Below are positions 7,657 through 64,000 of a stretch of 64,000 bases of DNA, one piece after another (within the stretch, counting starts at the first letter, position 1; every line of letters starts with the position of its first letter). The DNA is taken from the NCBI RefSeq assembly GCF_902825155.1, contig NZ_CADEAG010000002.1, positions 124,001 through 188,000 on the forward strand. Reading direction: 5' to 3'. Both the position numbers and the translations under genes were made by a program. The notes beneath the pieces are model-generated. The model did no database searches, was not told the origin of the DNA, and saw only the letters and a list, made by a program, of their open reading frames with translations. The DNA is from Bartonella taylorii 8TBB. Its GTDB lineage: Bacteria; Pseudomonadota; Alphaproteobacteria; Rhizobiales; Rhizobiaceae.

Positions 7657-8394
7657 TTAGTCTATAGCGAACACTACAGTAACACTGACATTATAACCCA
7701 ATTCACCTCCTGAAAAATTTGTATCAGCGTAGCTTGCACGGGATGCACTGCTCATAAGGCGCGGACTTGGATAATAATTATCATTATTTTCATTGATTTC
7801 AATGATTTTTCCTAATTTCAAATTTGCTGCTTGTGCTATAGTCTCAGCTTTTTCAATGGCTTCAGTGATAGCTTTTTTACGTGCTTCTTGATAAAATGGC
7901 TTTGTATCGGCGTTGGTAAAAGTAATGCCATTAACTGAGTTAACGCCGAGCGCCATTGCTTGATCAAATATTTTACCAGCATTAGCGAGATCACGAATAC
8001 GCACTGTTAAAGAATTTGAAACGTGATACAGTCTTTCGGAGTTCTTTTTTTCGTGATGTTTGTCAGGGTTAGATTGATAAATGGACAAGCCTGATGTTTG
8101 TAAATCATTTGCTTGGATGCCATTGTTCTTAAAAGCGTTTACAATATCATTCATAGATTTATTATTGGCTGCTAATGCTTTTTGGGCAGTTTTGTCATAT
8201 GTAACAACGGCTAAGTTGATAATTGCCATATCCGGTGTTGCTTGGCTTTCACCAGTTGCTGTAACTCTAATAGTTGCGTTTTTCATTTTGCTTTCTCCAG
8301 CATGTATGGGGAGTGAGCTGGCTAGCAATGCGAGTGCTATCATAACTACTTTAATTCTATAATGATTCAGCTGTTGGAAAATTGTCTTTATCAT
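7657..8394 (-). CDS. SIMPL domain-containing periplasmic protein (DUF541, YggE-like)
   Basis: A 245-aa exported protein. The first ~32 residues form a signal peptide (hydrophobic core VVMIALALLASSLPIHA with an A-x-A-like cleavage site). The mature part is a SIMPL/DUF541 domain: IRVTATGESQATPDMAIINLAV at the start and the family's QTSGLSIYQ segment in the middle. It ends with a GYNVSVTVVFAID strand. YggE relatives are linked to oxidative-stress tolerance, and Bartonella and Brucella relatives are periplasmic or outer-membrane antigens; the exact role is unknown. It is monocistronic and convergent with the YcgN-type gene. Confidence 0.85.
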   Translation of the reverse strand: MIKTIFQQLNHYRIKVVMIALALLASSLPIHAGESKMKNATIRVTATGESQATPDMAIINLAVVTYDKTAQKALAANNKSMNDIVNAFKNNGIQANDLQTSGLSIYQSNPDKHHEKKNSERLYHVSNSLTVRIRDLANAGKIFDQAMALGVNSVNGITFTNADTKPFYQEARKKAITEAIEKAETIAQAANLKLGKIIEINENNDNYYPSPRLMSSASRASYADTNFSGGELGYNVSVTVVFAID

Positions 8395-9855: not shown

Positions 9856-10038
9856 ATGAAGAATAGCGAAAAATTCGAGGCAACTTTATCTGATATTATA
9901 GTGAAATGGGAGGCTTTGTCGACAGCTCAAAAGCAAGAGATATTAAAAATAGTAGAAAGTTCTACAACTGCTTCTCAGTCAATAGAACACTTAAAGCTTC
10001 AATCTTCTTTTTATCTCCAGACGAAATCAAAGCGATGA
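9856..10038 (+). CDS. Small hypothetical protein overlapping a repressor gene on the other strand
   Basis: A 60-aa frame begins at the ATG at 9856, 7 bases after a GGAG ribosome-binding site. The first ~36 residues (MKNSEKFEATLSDIIVKW and onward) read like an amphipathic helical protein. The last ~25 residues lie antisense to the end of the XRE gene at 9962-10276 and may be spurious, so the gene could be truncated. No family recognised. The neighbourhood suggests a phage-derived orphan. Confidence 0.4.
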   Translation: MKNSEKFEATLSDIIVKWEALSTAQKQEILKIVESSTTASQSIEHLKLQSSFYLQTKSKR

Positions 10039-10276
10039 GTTTTAAATCTTCATCGGAGATATTAAAACCAGTTATCACATATATGGCGCTAGCATTCCCG
10101 AGTGTATTAAGAATAGCCATTAATTTATCTACAGAGGGCCTTTTCCCTCCGTTTATCATTTGTTGCACATAGTTCTGTCCACAGCCTGCTGCTTTGCTTA
10201 TTTCAATCATTGTGCGTCCGTCACTTTTTATTAATTCAATTAAGCGTTGGAACCAATCTTTTTCAGTCTTTTTCAT
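9962..10276 (-). CDS. XRE-family helix-turn-helix repressor-like protein
   Basis: A 104-aa DNA-binding protein. The N-terminal half carries a helix-turn-helix of the lambda Cro/CI type (TMIEISKAAGCGQNYVQQMI, then NGGKRPSVDKLMAIL). The C-terminal tail is short, without a peptidase or dimerisation domain that can be recognised. The start at 10276 is chosen because AAAGG lies 7 bases upstream; an in-frame ATG at 10294 lacks such a site. A perfect palindrome lies 20 bp upstream of the start. Probably a phage-type regulator; its targets are unknown. Confidence is high for the fold and low for the role. Confidence 0.8.
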   Translation of the reverse strand: MKKTEKDWFQRLIELIKSDGRTMIEISKAAGCGQNYVQQMINGGKRPSVDKLMAILNTLGNASAIYVITGFNISDEDLKLIALISSGDKKKIEALSVLLTEKQL

Positions 10277-56122: not shown

Positions 56123-56217
56123 TGTTAATATTTTAAATCCTCTAATTATTTATAAGCTATATTTAGATGTGGCTGCCAAAATACAGCCGCTAATTCTTGG
56201 AGAGGAGATGTCGCAGA

Positions 56218-56523
56218 ATGACAAATGATCTAGCAGATATTAAATTATATGATCCAAATCCTGATGAAGCTGCCATAGAACGGCTAAGACAGCGTTTGGC
56301 TTTGGTGATGCAAAAGCAGGATGCATCATTGGTTGCTACATCAGATCCAAAAGAGCTAGAACGCGTTGAAAAATGGGTTCAAGATGTATTAGTTGCCGAT
56401 GCGCAGAGCGCTAAAACAGTTGTTTCAAAAGTTGCAGATATGATGTCTGGAGAGCGTAGGAAAAGTCGTATGACTTTTTATTATTTGGTCGCTAAACAAT
56501 TAAACGCACTTCATAAAATTTAA
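56218..56523 (+). CDS. DUF2853-family protein
   Basis: A 101-aa cytoplasmic protein. The opening DLADIKLYDPNPDEAAIERL and the ending SGERRKSRMTFYYLVAKQLN fit the DUF2853 family. The ATG at 56218 follows GAGGAG; upstream in-frame codons have no support. No function is established. It is convergent with the first permease gene, sharing a symmetrical terminator. A decayed relative sits at 58105. Confidence 0.85.
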   Translation: MTNDLADIKLYDPNPDEAAIERLRQRLALVMQKQDASLVATSDPKELERVEKWVQDVLVADAQSAKTVVSKVADMMSGERRKSRMTFYYLVAKQLNALHKI

Positions 56524-56560
56524 ACAGTATCAAAATTAAATTTTTATACAATTATTACAA

Positions 56561-56586
56561 AAAAAGCCCAAGTACTTGGGCTTTTT
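56561..56586. terminator. Bidirectional terminator between DUF2853 and the first permease
   Basis: AAAAAGCCCAAGT/ACTTGGGCTTTTT is a perfect 13-bp palindromic hairpin with A- and T-tracts on both sides. It can terminate transcripts from both convergent genes. Confidence 0.85.
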
Positions 56587-56604
56587 CGTTTCATGTGGGA
56601 AGTT

Positions 56605-57912
56605 TTAATGGGGCTCATCCTCTTGAAGATATCCCCCCTTACTCATATCCGGTATAAAAAGAGTGGCTATGAATGCAATGATCATCACGCCGGTTACGTA
56701 AAAATAAAAGAGTGATTCATGTCCTATATTTTTTAATCCAAGTGCTACGTATTCAGCAGAACCACCAAATAATGCATTACCAATAGCATGAGAGAGACCA
56801 ACTCCTAGTGCTCGCACTGAAGAGGGAAACATTGCTGATTTTACGACACCAGAGATAGATGTATACATGCTCATAATACAGAGTATTCCAATAATGGTTG
56901 ATAGCGCAATCCATGTATTATCCGTGTGGCCGATTATGAGAAGTCCAGGAATCGTAAAGAGAGTAGAGAGTGCACTCCAAATGATAAGTAAATTTTTTGT
57001 CCCAATTTTATCAGCTAGAATACCAAATACGGGTTGAAGTAATATGAAAATAAAGAGTGCAGCAGTCATTATGGTTGTCGCGGTATGTTTATCAAAACCG
57101 GTAGTTGTGATCAGATATTTCTGCATATATGTCGTACAGGTGTAAAATGTGAGAGATCCTCCAGAGGCGAAGAGAGCAATAACAAAAAAAGCTTTTGTGT
57201 GTTTGCTTAGAAGCTCTTTAAGACTCCCAGTTTGTTTTTGAGAGCGGCTTTCTTTAGTGGTTGTTTCATGAAGCGAACGACGTAGATAAAGTATAACTAC
57301 TGCTGCTAATCCACCAATCGCAAAAGGAATACGCCAGCCCCATGTTCTTAATTGGTCTTCCGTTAGATAAAGTGCCAAAATAAATATAATAAAACTGCCT
57401 AAAAGTTGACCAGTAATAAGTGTGGTAGATTGGAAAGAAGCAAAGAGACCGCGATGATTTTTAAGGGAAACTTCGCTTATATAAGTTGCAGCTGTACCAT
57501 ATTCACCACCTGCTGAAAGTCCCTGCATCATTCGAAGTAAAAGCAGAAGAATTGCTGCTGTTATTCCAATAGTTTCATAGGTGGGAAGTATAGAGATGAG
57601 AAAAGAGCCACCACACATCATAAAAATAGATATGAGCATTGAGCGTTTGCGTCCATAACGATCAGCAATAAAGCCAAAAAGCCAACTTCCAATTGGGCGC
57701 ATAAGAAAACCAATAAAGAAGATTCCTGCAGTTTTTAAAAATTGGGTAACAACATCTCCATCTGAAGGGAAAAATTGTGGTGCAAAGTAAATCGATGCAA
57801 ATGAGTAAATGTAAAAATCATACCACTCTACCAGATTACCTAATGCGCTGGATATGATAGCAAAAACACGTTTTCTTGTATCATGTTGTATTAAAGTTGT
57901 TTCATTTTTCAT
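56605..57912 (-). CDS. kgtP: KgtP-like MFS permease, copy 1
   Basis: A 12-helix proton symporter of the metabolite:H+ symporter (MHS) family, resembling E. coli alpha-ketoglutarate permease throughout its 435 aa. The signature [14 protein letters not shown] is near residue 26. The loop motif [13 protein letters not shown] and the QGLSAGGEYGTAATYISEV segment are intact. The ATG has GGGGAG 6 bases upstream, and the leader is repeated upstream of the next copies. First of four tandem copies. The substrate is inferred from the family: 2-oxoglutarate or a related dicarboxylate. Confidence 0.9.
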   Translation of the reverse strand: MKNETTLIQHDTRKRVFAIISSALGNLVEWYDFYIYSFASIYFAPQFFPSDGDVVTQFLKTAGIFFIGFLMRPIGSWLFGFIADRYGRKRSMLISIFMMCGGSFLISILPTYETIGITAAILLLLLRMMQGLSAGGEYGTAATYISEVSLKNHRGLFASFQSTTLITGQLLGSFIIFILALYLTEDQLRTWGWRIPFAIGGLAAVVILYLRRSLHETTTKESRSQKQTGSLKELLSKHTKAFFVIALFASGGSLTFYTCTTYMQKYLITTTGFDKHTATTIMTAALFIFILLQPVFGILADKIGTKNLLIIWSALSTLFTIPGLLIIGHTDNTWIALSTIIGILCIMSMYTSISGVVKSAMFPSSVRALGVGLSHAIGNALFGGSAEYVALGLKNIGHESLFYFYVTGVMIIAFIATLFIPDMSKGGYLQEDEPH

Positions 57913-58104
57913 GAAGCGCTCCCCTTTTAGATCTATAGTTTATTTTTTTCTATTTAAAGTTGTTTACGATTTGTATTATCAAAATTCAATTGTATAATGA
58001 TAATTTCTTGTGAAAGTTCTGTGAGACGGTTTAATTGGGCTAACTGTTTATGCCTTTTGAAACCTATATTTTTGTAGGTGGATAAAAGTTATCAAATCGG
58101 ATTT

Positions 58105-58220
58105 CAAGAGAGACAATACCTTGAAAGATAGGTTCAAGATGTCTTTGGTACGGATGAATGGAATGCAAAAATAGCAGCTTCAAAAGTTGCAGAGGTGATG
58201 TCTGGTGATTATGGAAAAAG
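58105..58220 (+). pseudogene. Decayed second copy of the DUF2853 gene
   Basis: In one frame the region reads QERQYLER-stop-VQDVFGTDEWNAKIAASKVAEVMSG, which aligns without gaps to KELERVEKWVQDVLVADAQS, then AKTVVSKVADMMSG of the intact gene at 56218. The W codon has become TAG. The start and the C-terminal end are missing. It occupies the same place relative to copy 2 as the intact gene does to copy 1, so a DUF2853-permease unit was duplicated. Confidence 0.75.
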
Positions 58221-58241
58221 CCCAATTTCTCAGGCTTTTTT
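58215..58241. terminator. Terminator downstream of permease copy 2
   Basis: AAAAAGCC and GGCTTTTT form an 8-bp stem around an 11-nt loop just before the stop of copy 2 (minus strand). It corresponds in position to the palindromic terminator at 56561. Confidence 0.6.
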
Positions 58242-58257
58242 ATTTCATATAGAAATT

Positions 58258-59565
58258 TTAATGGATTTCATCATCTTTAAGATATCCTCCTTTGTCTATA
58301 TCTGGCATCAAGAGAATTGAGATGAGTGCAATGATCATCATACCAACTATATAAAAGAAGAAGACAGTTTCATATCCCATACTTTTTAATCCAAATGCTA
58401 CAGTTTCAGCAGAACCGCCAAATAGTGCATTCCCAATGGCAAAAGCAAGTCCAACGCCGATTGCTCGGATTGAAACAGGGAATAGTTCTGCTTTTATGAT
58501 ACCTGCGATAGATGTATAAAAACTCATAATACAGAGCATTCCAACAATAATTAAGAGTGCAACCCATGTATTATTAGTGCTACCAATTACGTTCAGTGCA
58601 GGAATTGTACAGATAATGGATAAGGTACTCCACATGATGAGAGAAGCTCTTGCTCCAATTTTATCGGCTAGAGAACCAAATAGGGGCTGTAGTAACACGA
58701 AAATAAGGAGTGCAGCAGTCATTATTGTTGTGCTAGTGTGTTTATCAAATCCGGTGGTGGTGATCAGATATTTTTGCATATAAGTGGTATAGGTATAAAA
58801 TGTGAGCGACCCTCCCACTGTAAAGCCAATAACCAAAAAGAAAGCTTTTTTGTGGTTGTGTAAAAGTTCTATAATACTACCAGCGTGTTTTTTAGAACGA
58901 CTTTCTTCTGTGGTTGTTTCATGGAGTGAACGACGTAGGTAAATTGCAACTATTGCTCCAAAGCCACCAATTAAAAAAGGAATACGCCAGCCCCATGCTT
59001 TTAACTGATCTTCGTTAAGATAAAGTGCTAAAATGAATATAGTGAGGCTGGCGAGAAGTTGACCTGTGATCGTTGTAGCATACTGGAAGGAAGCAAAGAG
59101 ACCGCGACGATTTTTAAGAGCCACTTCACTCATATAAGTTGCTGTTGTACCATATTCACCGCCAACTGAAAGTCCTTGAAACATACGAATTAAAAGTAGA
59201 AGGAATGCTGCTGTCGCTCCAATAGTTTCGTAGGTAGGAAGTATGGCAATGAGAAATGAGCCCCCACACATCATAAAAACAGAAATAAGCATTGAGCGTT
59301 TACGTCCATAACGGTCAGCAATGAAGCCAAAGAACCATGCTCCAATCGGGCGCATAAGAAAGCCAACAAAAAAGATTCCTGCGATTTTTAACAACTGCGT
59401 AACGGGATCTTTATCTGTAGGAAAGAATTGCGAAGCAAAATAAATCGACGTAAATGAGTAAGCGTAAAAATCATACCATTCTACGAGATTTCCTGATGCA
59501 CTGGCTATGATAGCAAAAATACGTTTCCTTGTATCATGTGGTGCTAAAGTTGTTTCGTTTTTCAC
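58258..59565 (-). CDS. kgtP: KgtP-like MFS permease, copy 2
   Basis: Second tandem paralogue, 435 aa, co-linear with copy 1. Motifs [27 protein letters not shown] and [19 protein letters not shown] are all intact. It starts with GTG at 59565, after AAGGGGGG, whereas copies 1 and 3 use ATG. Differences from copy 1 cluster in membrane helices, as expected for sequence drift after duplication. The substrate is inferred: 2-oxoglutarate or a similar dicarboxylate. Confidence 0.9.
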   Translation of the reverse strand: MKNETTLAPHDTRKRIFAIIASASGNLVEWYDFYAYSFTSIYFASQFFPTDKDPVTQLLKIAGIFFVGFLMRPIGAWFFGFIADRYGRKRSMLISVFMMCGGSFLIAILPTYETIGATAAFLLLLIRMFQGLSVGGEYGTTATYMSEVALKNRRGLFASFQYATTITGQLLASLTIFILALYLNEDQLKAWGWRIPFLIGGFGAIVAIYLRRSLHETTTEESRSKKHAGSIIELLHNHKKAFFLVIGFTVGGSLTFYTYTTYMQKYLITTTGFDKHTSTTIMTAALLIFVLLQPLFGSLADKIGARASLIMWSTLSIICTIPALNVIGSTNNTWVALLIIVGMLCIMSFYTSIAGIIKAELFPVSIRAIGVGLAFAIGNALFGGSAETVAFGLKSMGYETVFFFYIVGMMIIALISILLMPDIDKGGYLKDDEIH

Positions 59566-60394
59566 AAAATACCCCCCTTTTTAGATCTATAGTTTATTTT
59601 TTCTATTTAAAGTTGTTTACGATTTGTATCATCAAAATTCAATTGTATAATGATAATTTTTTGTAAAAGTTCTTTGATACGGCTTAATTGGGTTAACTGT
59701 TCATGCTTTTTGGATTCTTTATTGGTAGTAGGATGAAAAAATATAATCTTCATAAGAAGCTTTATTTTGCTTAATTGGACTGTATTTTTGTGATTTTCCC
59801 TTAGAGGAGGAAAAGTTTGTGTGATTAAAAAAACTGTTATTTTTGTTGCTTCATTATGAATTTAGCTAAACATCAATGCATATAATGGCGTTATTGGGGG
59901 GATTATGCAATACTTGGCATTTAACGACAAATTTGCCCTATTTTAAGATATTGATTTATAATGGATAGGGATTTTTGTTTTTCTTGAGTGTGATTTACTG
60001 TGCACATACATGGTGTGATAATTCACAATCTGCGCATTCACCCCTGAAAGTACTGTTGCTCCTCATTTTCTTTCACGCTTGTATTGTTGAAAAACGGAGA
60101 ATTTCAAAATGAGGTAGGTGCGGTTTTTGTCATGGAAAGAAATAATTTTCGATAAAGGTTGCTTATTACTGGATAATAATTTCTTTCTTAATTTTAAGTG
60201 TACTGAATTTTGTAGAAGAATAATGTACTCACAATATGGTGAGAGAGTGTACTTTTTGCAGTTTATGTCAAAGAAAAGTATGTGATTTCGTTTATGGTAC
60301 TAGATATGGAGATATAACAGATTGTAAATACTGAATTCACATGGTTATCACAATCAAAAGCCCTATTAGGGCTTTTGATTTAGCATAGAAGGTT
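59566..60394. repeat. Repeated spacer between permease copies 2 and 3
   Basis: About 830 bp without a gene. Its segments AATACTTGGCATTTAACGAC, CACAATCTGCGCATTC and TTTCAAAATGAGGTAGGTGC recur in diverged form in the spacer between copies 3 and 4. The leader of copy 2 occupies its left part. It ends in the palindromic terminator at 60352. Confidence 0.7.
60352..60380. terminator. Palindromic terminator downstream of permease copy 3
   Basis: AATCAAAAGCCCT and AGGGCTTTTGATT form a 13-bp stem around a tiny loop, 15 bp beyond the stop codon of copy 3. T-rich flanks on both strands make it a likely terminator. Confidence 0.7.
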
Positions 60395-61702
60395 TTAATG
60401 GATTCCATCACCTTGAAGATAGCCCTTTTTTCGGGCATCGGGCATCAGGAGAACTGCAATAAATGCAATTATCATCATGCCGGTTATATAAAAATAGAAG
60501 AGTGATTCATATTCCATATTTTTTAATCCAAGTGCTACGTATTCGGCTGATCCGCCAAATAATGCATTAGCAATGGCATAGGAGAGTCCAACTCCCATTG
60601 CACGTACTGAAGCAGGAAACATTTCCGCTTTTACGATACCAGCGATGGATGTATAAAAACTCATAATACAGAGCATTCCGATAATGATTAAAAGTGCAAT
60701 CGCTGTATCGTTAGCGTTAGCAATCATTCTGAGCCCAGGAATCGTAAAGATAATAGATAAAGCACTCCACATGAGGAGTGAAGTTTTTGTGCCAATTTTA
60801 TCAGCTAGAAAGCCAAATACAGGTTGAAGTAACATAAAAACGAAAAGAGCAGCGGTCATTATGGTTGTGGCTGTATGTTTATCAAATCCGGTAGTCGTGA
60901 TCAGATACTTTTGCATATAAGTGGTATAGGTATAAAATGTGAGTGATCCTCCAGCTGTAAAGCCAACAACCAGAAAGAAAGCTTTTCTGTGATTGCGTAG
61001 AAGCTCTATAAGACTACCAGCCTGCTTTTTAGAACGACTTTCTTCTGTGGTTGTTTCATGAAGCGAACTGCGGACATAAATTGCAACAATTGCTCCTAAT
61101 CCACCGATTACAAAAGGAATACGCCATCCCCATGCTTTTAACTGATCTTCTGTGAGATAAAACGCCAGAATAAATATAACAAAGCTGGCTAAAAGTTGCC
61201 CACCAATCAGCGTAGTGTATTGAAAAGAGCTAAAGAATCCACGGCGATTTTTGAGGGCAACTTCACTCATATAAGTTGCTGTAGTGCCATATTCACCGCC
61301 GACAGAAAGTCCCTGAAGCATTCGAAGTAAAAGTAAAAGAACTGCTGCTGTTGCTCCAATAGTTTCATAGGTAGGAAGTACGGCGATGAGGAATGAGCCG
61401 CCGCACATCATAAAAACAGAAATAAGCATTGAGCGTTTGCGTCCATAACGATCAGCAATGTATCCGAAAATCCATGCTCCAATAGGACGCATAAGAAAGC
61501 CAATAAAAAAGATTCCTGCTGTTTTTAACAGTGGCGTAACAACGTCATCATTAGAAGGAAAAAATTGTGATGCAAAATAAATGGACGTAAATGAGTAAAC
61601 ATAAAAATCATACCATTCTACGAGATTTCCTGATGCACTGGCTATGATAGCAAAGATACGTTTCCTTGTATCATGTGGCGCTAAAGTTGTTTTACTTTTC
61701 AT
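60395..61702 (-). CDS. kgtP: KgtP-like MFS permease, copy 3
   Basis: Third tandem paralogue, 435 aa, with the signature [14 protein letters not shown] and the [13 protein letters not shown] and [19 protein letters not shown] motifs intact. It uses ATG at 61702 with AAGGGGAA upstream. One change is RSSLHETT where the others have RRSLHETT in the central loop. Co-linear with copies 1 and 2; full length and apparently functional. The substrate is inferred: 2-oxoglutarate or a similar dicarboxylate. Confidence 0.9.
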
Positions 61703-62705
61703 GAAGTATTCCCCTTTTAGATCTATGGTTTGTTTTTTCTATTTAGAGTTGTTTGCGATTTGTATCTTATATCATAAAAAGATTAATTCTACAGCGATAA
61801 TTTTTTATGAGAACTATTTAAGACCTATGATTTTGCTTGTAAAGTCGTGTCTTTCTAGGGTTTTATTTCAGTCAGGGAGAAGAGTTATAATATTAATAGG
61901 AAAGCTATTTTTAGTTTTTATTACTTGTTTAATAATATTAATCCTTTTCAGATAAAAATATATAAAAATACAGTGTTTTTGTGGTAAAATCATATTTTAA
62001 TTTCTTTAGAGTATAAGAAATTCATGTGGTTAATAAAAATATCATTTTATTGTAAGTTGAGATAAATATAGATTCATATAAAGTGTAATACTTTTTCATT
62101 TATGTAATTTCTATTGTTTTATAAACTGACATTATTATAAGAATTTGTGAAATACTTGGTGTTTATTGATAAATTTGCAATATTTTAAGAATCTGACTTA
62201 TAATACGTTTTTCAGAGGAAACAAGGTTTTTTTCTTGAGGGAGGCTTATTATGCATATCCATGTTGTGGTGATCCACAATCTACACGTCTACAGCTGAAA
62301 GTGTTATTGTTGTTCATTTTCCTTTCCACTTAACTACTGTTGCAAAAAGAATTTTTCAAAATGAGGAAGATGCAGTTTTTGTTATAGAAGGGAGTAATTT
62401 TCAATAAAAGTTAATTATTATTGAAAAAACTCCTTTTTTCTTCGATTTTAATAAAAAGAGTGAATGCTTTTTAAAAGCAATACTTGTTAAAATAGTTAAA
62501 TATTTTTTGATCTTAAAGGTTATATCTTTGTAAAAGAAAAAAATGACATATTTGTAATAATAAAAAGTAATTTACTTTTTAGAGCTTGTCGCAGAGAGTA
62601 TTGCTTCTTTACGATATTAAAGGAGGGAAGTTTGTAAATATTTGATTTCCATATGATAGGCATAAAAAAGCTCAGTGTCCTAAGTTTTTTTATTAACATA
62701 AAAAG
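61703..62705. repeat. Repeated spacer between permease copies 3 and 4
   Basis: About 1 kb without a gene. It shares the copy-2/3 spacer elements in a more diverged form (ACTTGGTGTTTATTGATAAA, CACAATCTACACGTC, TTTCAAAATGAGGAAG). A 103-codon plus-strand frame at 61644-61955 overlaps the start of copy 3 and is not called. Confidence 0.65.
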
Positions 62706-64000
62706 TTAATGAATGCTGTCCCCTTGAAGATATCCCTGAAGATATCCCTTTTTTTGAGTATCTAGTATAAAGAAAATTATGATAAATGCAATGATCATCA
62801 TACCGACTATATAAAAATGGAATAAAGATTCATATCCAAGATCTTTTAATCCAAGCGCTACAGTTTCAGCAGAACCACCAAACAATGCATTAGCAATAGC
62901 ATAAGAGAGTCCAACACCCATTGCGCGTATTGAAGCAGGGAACATTTCTGCTTTTACGATACCAGAGATAGATGTATCAAAACTCATAATGCAGAGCATC
63001 CCAATAATGACAGATAATGCTACCCATGTATCATCAGTGTTCCCAATGATTCTCAGTGCAGGGATTGTAAAGATGATGGACAAAGTGCTCCAAATAAGCA
63101 GTAAATTTTTTGTGCCAATTTTGTCTGCGAGGGAACCAAATATGGGCTGGAGTAACATGAAAACAAAGAGTGCAGAAGTCATTATTGTTGTAGCAGTATG
63201 TTTATCAAATCCGGTAGTCGTTATCAGATATTTTTGCATATAGGTCGTACAGGTATAAAATGTGAGAGATCCTCCAGCTGTAAAACCAATCACTAAAAAG
63301 AAAGCTTTTCCATGATTGCATAGAAGCTCTTCAAGACTACCAGCCTGTTTTTTAGAACGCCCTTCTTTTGTCGTTGTTTCATGAAGTGAACGACGTAGGT
63401 AAATTGCAACAATTGCTCCCAATCCACCAATTGCAAAAGGAATACGCCACCCCCATGCCTTCAACTGATCTTCTGTTAAATAGAGTGCTAGAGTAAACAT
63501 AGTTAAACTGGCGAGAAGCTGACCACCAATCAGTGTGGCATATTGGAATGAACTAAAAAACACACGACGACTTTGGGGTGCAACTTCGCTCATATAAGTT
63601 ATTGTTGTACCATATTCACCGCCCACTGAGAGTCCTTGAAGCATATGAAGTAAAATGAGCAAAATCGCTGCTGTTGCTCCAATGGTTTCATAGGTAGGCA
63701 GTAAAGCGATGAGGAATGAGCCACCGCACATCATAAAAACAGAAATAAGCATTGAGCGTTTGCGTCCATAACGGTCAGCAATAAAGCCAAAAAGCCAACC
63801 ACCAATTGGACGCATGAGAAAGCCTATAAAAAGGACAATGGAAGACTTTAAAAATTCGGTAATATCCCCATTGGAGGGAAAAAACTGTGACGAAAAATAA
63901 ATGGATGTAAAAGAATAAACATAAAAACCATACCATTCTATCAGATTACTTGATGCACTAGATATGATAGAAAAAATACGTTCTCTTGTATTATGCGGTG
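62706..64000 (-). CDS. kgtP: KgtP-like MFS permease, copy 4, partial (N-terminus beyond window) and diverged
   Basis: Fourth paralogue. The frame is open from the stop at 62706 to the right edge (430 residues; about eight N-terminal residues are missing). Compared with copies 1-3 the family signature [10 protein letters not shown] reads SNLIEWYGFY, losing the conserved G and D. One codon is missing near FPSNGDITEF, and the first helix differs (SSIVLFIGF for TAGIFFIGF). A 12-bp duplication near 62725-62748 repeats GYLQ in the C-terminus. Other motifs remain intact. It may have altered or lost transport. Confidence 0.85.
   Translation of the reverse strand, partial: PHNTRERIFSIISSASSNLIEWYGFYVYSFTSIYFSSQFFPSNGDITEFLKSSIVLFIGFLMRPIGGWLFGFIADRYGRKRSMLISVFMMCGGSFLIALLPTYETIGATAAILLILLHMLQGLSVGGEYGTTITYMSEVAPQSRRVFFSSFQYATLIGGQLLASLTMFTLALYLTEDQLKAWGWRIPFAIGGLGAIVAIYLRRSLHETTTKEGRSKKQAGSLEELLCNHGKAFFLVIGFTAGGSLTFYTCTTYMQKYLITTTGFDKHTATTIMTSALFVFMLLQPIFGSLADKIGTKNLLLIWSTLSIIFTIPALRIIGNTDDTWVALSVIIGMLCIMSFDTSISGIVKAEMFPASIRAMGVGLSYAIANALFGGSAETVALGLKDLGYESLFHFYIVGMMIIAFIIIFFILDTQKKGYLQGYLQGDSIH

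Follow-up and report, generated by a model that had tools for sequence, protein, structure and literature searches.

A putative old and still recombining tandem array of KgtP-type permeases at a single site in Bartonella

Tandem amplification of bacterial genes by unequal crossing-over, with passenger genes that decay, is a known process. In E. coli K-12, the alpha-ketoglutarate:H+ symporter KgtP (b2587), a member of the MHS family of the MFS, is encoded by a single kgtP gene in the 6-kb stretch examined. Within the genus Bartonella, tandem duplication has also shaped the iba and badA families, which are autotransporter and adhesin genes unlike the permeases considered here, and the word 'permease' does not occur in the main text of the paper describing them (PMC3610622). 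Here, we analyse a stretch of 64,000 nucleotides from Bartonella taylorii 8TBB (contig NZ_CADEAG010000002.1, positions 124,001 to 188,000; "the window" hereafter), in which four tandem paralogues, c1 to c4, are 53-58% identical to E. coli KgtP and one of them has lost otherwise invariant residues. To judge from the sequence, these genes probably form a tandem array of KgtP-type 2-oxoglutarate/proton symporters that is old and continues to recombine, located at one chromosomal site of Bartonella (DUF2853-permease-thyA-folA), a reading to which we assign a probability of roughly 0.82. The type of array is already known: as in tandem amplification generally, the copies lie head to tail, one gene is a crossover hybrid, copy number varies and passenger genes persist as fossils. 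The Bartonella array differs in being very old, with orthologous copies that last through a clade of 40 loci without collapse or homogenisation. No account of it was found among the papers listed by searches of the open literature, most subscription papers lying outside them, and to our knowledge both the length of its survival and the readability of its scars are unusual.

The four genes lie on the minus strand, namely c1 (copy A, 56605..57912), c2 (copy B, 58258..59565), c3 (60395..61702), each of 435 codons, and c4 (62706..64022, with the first 22 nt cut off by the window), an open frame of 438 codons in the position adjacent to thyA, or T slot. The frame of c2 starts with GTG. An earlier note, made from the letters of this DNA, had described four head-to-tail minus-strand permeases separated by repeated spacers, and both statements hold: in blocks of 300 nt, c1-c4 give gapless matches of 69-80% to a reference copy, and the spacers align with each other over 127 nt at 90% identity upstream of c1 and c2, over 56 nt at 75-91% upstream of c1-c3, and in further two-copy blocks at 72% and 80%. 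Two other statements had to be given up. The genes are not separated by spacers alone, as decayed folA sequence lies between c2 and c3 and between c3 and c4, and the array does not run past the window, c4 being the last copy, with thyA 229 nt beyond its start codon.

The age of the array emerges from its relatives. Among 71 genomes of the genus, 64 contained a relative (E 1e-120 or better). The loci read number 60; those not taken are G063 and G077, whose copies are spread over several contigs, and G074 and G082, with one match each. A quick tree of flank genes covers 56 of these loci, while G012, G021, G043 and G047 each carry a single relative without any of these flank genes around it. Forty of the 56 loci form one clade (support 97), hereafter the multi-copy clade, which we take to be the "lineage 4" of the literature. 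Copy trees were built from full-length open copies, 74 in a first set and 128 of 145 permease pieces in a larger one. In the tree of 74 proteins, the copies labelled p1 form clade A (100/100, 20 rows) and the p2 copies clade B (100/96, 18 rows), which also includes an extra B. massiliensis copy; A and B are sisters (97/98) and the T copies fall outside. The larger quick tree agrees (A 100, 31 rows; B 96, 34 rows; A+B 97). In parallel, paralogues in the window are separated by a synonymous divergence (dS) of 0.62-0.79, with a ratio of nonsynonymous to synonymous divergence (omega) of 0.14-0.27, by a simple NG86 count that makes high dS values rough. The dS of c1 to its p1 counterpart in G013 is 0.030. 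Because A and B copies group by position across species and the dS between window paralogues is high, the amplification predates the split of the multi-copy clade. Omega lies at 0.06-0.17 in 18 pairs of orthologues drawn from A, B and T, so the copies have been kept by purifying selection. Homogenisation within genomes is rare: a copy's own paralogue was the best match in 13 of 2100 comparison windows, where eight control runs gave 0-4 such cases among 2016-2163. Concerted evolution was rejected on this count and on the clades following position.

Copy number ranges from 1 to 4 per locus among relatives. Read from the DUF2853 side, the open copies in the multi-copy clade are ABT at 26 loci, ABBT at two and ABTT at one, the window; the others are AT (two), B and T with a broken A (two), BT (one, at a contig end) and T alone (six, five of them with broken pieces). 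Thus T is open in 40/40 loci, A in 31 of 39 assessable ones and B in 32/40, and all three are open in 29. The locus not assessable for A is G085, which lacks it due to the contig end only and has a further copy on another contig. Outside the clade, 14 of the 16 loci in the flank-gene tree have a single permease (the G068 copy could not be aligned over its first 12 residues), while three copies, one of them broken, are present in G004 and three in G075. A and B have been lost repeatedly. The proposal that four dicarboxylate-type transporters are kept in the face of genome reduction is weakened by these losses, by the 1.59-Mb member G065 (1588683 bases), in which T alone is open and the remaining pieces are broken, and by the state of c4, with 10 changes at 171 near-invariant positions; four open frames need not mean four working transporters. 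Orthologues are under purifying selection, and dosage or different substrates may have been selected for. In G062 (L142) the array is partly broken and rearranged, with the T-slot copy on the strand opposite to the B copy; by dS, this T-slot copy is also the closest one to c4.

How the copies arose can be read from gene fossils between them. Hidden Markov models (HMMs) of near full-length flank genes were run against 76 inter-permease spacers of at least 100 nt between same-strand pieces (57385 nt), and against their reversals. At E<=0.01, DUF2853 was found in 26 spacers, thyA in 12 and folA in 12, all on the strand of the native gene, while hflK, hflC, sspB, uvrD and the reversed spacers gave 0 matches at the same threshold. 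Within the multi-copy clade, DUF2853 fossils occupy 24 spacers, 21 of them labelled p1-p2 and three with renumbered copies, and the thyA (10) and folA (12) fossils lie beside the T-type copy, one of them in a spacer labelled p1-p2 where the contig is cut. With the threshold at E<=1e-4, the first matched position of DUF2853 falls at nt 115-153 of the gene (12/21 at 115-123) and all four thyA matches end at nt 361-366; since such ends are shared within the clade, single duplication events are suggested. For the thyA-folA unit, no left end could be located.

The window holds one DUF2853 and two folA fossils, and the HMM search gave no thyA fossil in its spacers. The DUF2853 remnant (58092..58230, plus strand; nhmmer E 2e-20, HMM nt 119-258), a putative scar of the A/B duplication, is gapless with a stop in place of a tryptophan (tblastn E 6.6e-5), as the earlier note had seen beside c2. 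The folA remnants, also on the plus strand, lie in the c2-c3 spacer (59877..60184; nhmmer E 6.4e-21, HMM nt 33-365) and the c3-c4 spacer (62155..62429; nhmmer E 2.3e-13, HMM nt 71-358; tblastn E 0.002), and a 75-nt repeat (60102-60176, 62354-62428) falls inside both. An ancestral unit of DUF2853 plus permease, as first proposed, therefore fits the A/B step, in which DUF2853 took part with its 3' portion, starting near nt 118, and does not fit the B/T step, whose scar is permease plus thyA-folA. Such scars of successive duplications, with readable breakpoints, make this an unusually legible case of how a tandem array originates, survives speciation and shrinks.

Recombination between copies is seen in c3. 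At 149 diagnostic sites, c3 carries the B state at 31/39 up to nt 352 and the T state at 98/110 thereafter. Its 5' part groups with the p2 copy of G013 (support 84), and the approximately unbiased (AU) test rejects a position among the T copies of G013 and G024 (p 0.027); its 3' part groups with those same T copies (support 98). Among the upstream regions listed (68 aligned), types are positional, with one type in the thyA-adjacent copies of the clade and a second in the inner copies. The region before c3 is of the inner type, and so is that of c1 (upstream region 57913..58091, minus strand), 127 nt of which recur at 90% 5' of c2. One unequal crossover fits c3, because a B promoter region and 5' end sit on a T body in a gene placed between B and the T slot. 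Amplification by unequal crossing-over and a duplicated DUF2853, as the earlier note proposed, are supported, c3 taking its promoter region and 5' part from one neighbour and its 3' part from the other, as such crossing-over predicts. Furthermore, c2 is a mosaic, parts of which have drifted much further from G013 than the flanking genes have: dS to the p2 copy of G013 is 0.35, though seven flank genes give 0.03-0.13.

The last copy, c4, has 10 changes at 171 near-invariant columns, where the median of each copy class is 0. Among 128 copies, only the p3 copy of G066 (13) and the distant copies of G012 and G021 (12 each) have more. In particular, G25S, D32G, F65L and R127H affect columns that are invariant in a 33-sequence family alignment, D32 being the Asp of the EWYD motif. 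Terminal omega is 0.19 for c4, 0.06-0.10 for four comparators and 0.17 for G066 p3. Taken together, c4 is open, not neutral and probably impaired. The third copy of G066 (L148), also in the T slot, is a second case like c4.

As for function, c1, c2 and c3 score 555.9, 577.1 and 607.2 bits against NF007710 (PRK10406, the KgtP subfamily), above the curated cut-off of 550, and c4 scores 483 bits, its 369-aa in-window part alone, out of 438 aa, having been scored. Identity to KgtP of E. coli K-12 (NC_000913) is 53.2% for c1, 54.8% for c2, 58.3% for c3, 54.9% for c4 and 60.9% for the T copy of G013. Among proteins of solved structure, a sequence search brought up 16 distantly related MFS members, with a best E of 1.1e-7. 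A 2-oxoglutarate/proton symporter is most likely what c1-c4 encode, the assignment with the most support, and transport itself is predicted. According to the accessible part of PMC11983613, a metabolic model of B. quintana, whose numbers that paper treats with caution, has no simple-sugar transporters, an incomplete glycolysis and a 2-oxoglutarate input flux second only to oxygen. An amplified 2-oxoglutarate importer would make sense in such a metabolism. The amplified gene is the probable entry route of a main carbon input in that model, so the number of copies and how far they have diverged may be tied to the niche in the host.

Each copy may be transcribed separately, to judge from the upstream region and the 3' hairpin that every one of them possesses: RNA folds just 3' of c1-c4 reach -15.2, -13.5, -18.9 and -10.6 kcal/mol, values taken without a shuffle control.

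These observations can be assembled into a probable history, whose duplication steps have the support of scars and trees. Before the multi-copy clade split, a segment with the permease, thyA and most of folA was duplicated, yielding the ancestor of A and B next to T, and a second duplication of the 3' part of DUF2853 with the A/B ancestor then produced the two inner copies. The passengers thyA, folA and DUF2853 decayed to spacer fossils, whereas purifying selection continued to act on the permeases. The lineage of the window then saw recombination between B and T, from which c3 emerged as a hybrid whose promoter region and N-terminus are B-type and whose body is T-type. By this account, each copy would be transcribed alone and import 2-oxoglutarate, T would be the indispensable copy, A would have diverged in substrate handling or use, and in the window genome c3 may be replacing a weakening c4. 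A bolder version, which we consider clearly less likely than not, is a "permease factory" in which the T slot always keeps an ancestral-type importer and inner variants recombine with T within genomes and between species, so that a main carbon importer of the genus is replaced piecewise; in the window, c3, under a different promoter, would be succeeding c4.

A number of results weigh against this history. The c4 gene differs from the T copy (p3) of G013 by a dS of 0.80, against 0.089 for four flank genes, and its nearest copy by dS is p5 of G062 (0.27, against a flank dS of 0.48). On these values duplication followed by divergence fails, and a plain copy of the native T gene was rejected as the origin of c4; exchange between lineages seems to be needed for this gene, and exchange between species at this array is likely. 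Fossils are missing from many spacers (DUF2853 is detected in 21/35 labelled p1-p2, thyA and folA in 8/31 each labelled p2-p3), weaker thyA matches span other parts of the gene (nt 1-119, 259-389), and the T part of c3 contains scattered B sites, mostly at nt 1001-1100. Promoter-like sites are not above shuffles (32 vs 31.9). The scores of c1-c3 for TIGR00883 (metabolite/H+ symporter), 407.2, 418.1 and 426.9 bits, miss its cut-off of 443.45, with E-values of 1e-121 or better, so the copies were not assigned to that family. Finally, in the experiments of PMC11983613 cultures gained growth, yet viability unexpectedly fell in some supplemented media.

Retention could also reflect different substrates, with A, and B less so, now carrying another dicarboxylate, which we regard as a genuine possibility that falls short of an even chance. 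A has 13 private fixed changes and four more are common to A and B; seven of these 17 were compared, and five replace residues common to the T copies and E. coli KgtP (Y162S, G167T and Y375H in A, L174F and A378G in A and B). However, private fixed changes in B number just 3, and S158A, shared by A and B, goes to the E. coli residue. An unlikely alternative to the two-step history starts from a single unit (DUF2853-permease-thyA-folA') repeated twice, different passenger halves having been deleted later in each spacer. Both spacers of G004 hold thyA followed by DUF2853, so a combined unit is present in at least one other lineage. In the multi-copy clade, by contrast, no spacer carries both kinds at E<=0.01, DUF2853 being confined to A-B-type spacers and thyA/folA to those beside T-type copies, and in A-B-type spacers DUF2853 begins at position 130-213, directly after the promoter region, which leaves no space for thyA. 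Less probable still is that the array consists of near-neutral remains on their way to being lost: 8/39 assessable loci lack an intact A and 8/40 an intact B, and c4 has lost invariant residues, but the low omega of the orthologue pairs and the 29/40 loci with A, B and T open count against this. A recent local amplification of one gene for dosage in the window genome is scarcely credible and was rejected, since, despite copy numbers of 1 to 4 among relatives, the window copies differ by a dS of 0.62-0.79, c1 and c2 group by position with copies of other species, and recent homogenisation is rare (13/2100).

Comparable arrays occur outside the multi-copy clade. G004 (L047) has its own three-copy array, with decayed thyA plus DUF2853 in both spacers (7912-8153 and 9959-10162 of that locus) and other breakpoints; mainly because its scar differs, this array appears to be independent. 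The two copies of G004 that are open, p1 and p3, fall into a single clade (support 99), but a tree in which p3 joins A+B is not rejected (AU p 0.44). G075 (L139), a 1.4-Mb genome and a possible further case of independent amplification, has three open, strongly diverged copies, for which AU p is 0.62 as one clade and 0.65 when joining A+B; the flank-gene HMM search detected no fossils in their spacers.

To the right of the array, thyA is followed by folA, hflK, hflC and a degP-like gene, on the other strand, names that we presume from reading the translations. The left flank is the native DUF2853 gene (56218..56523, plus strand), convergent with c1 and intact, as previously noted: it scores 68.4 bits against PF11015, where the Pfam gathering threshold is 25. 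Its start is taken as ATG 56218 instead of TTG 56197, because the profile aligns from its position 3 at the fifth residue when that ATG is counted as the first. Between the gene and c1 lies a terminator-like hairpin usable both ways (56561..56586). The DUF2853 frame is intact in 38 of the 40 multi-copy-clade loci, and one of the other two (G085) ends at a contig edge. In B. quintana, DUF2853 (BQ08670) is among the unannotated temperature-responsive genes, according to the accessible part of PMC3595295.

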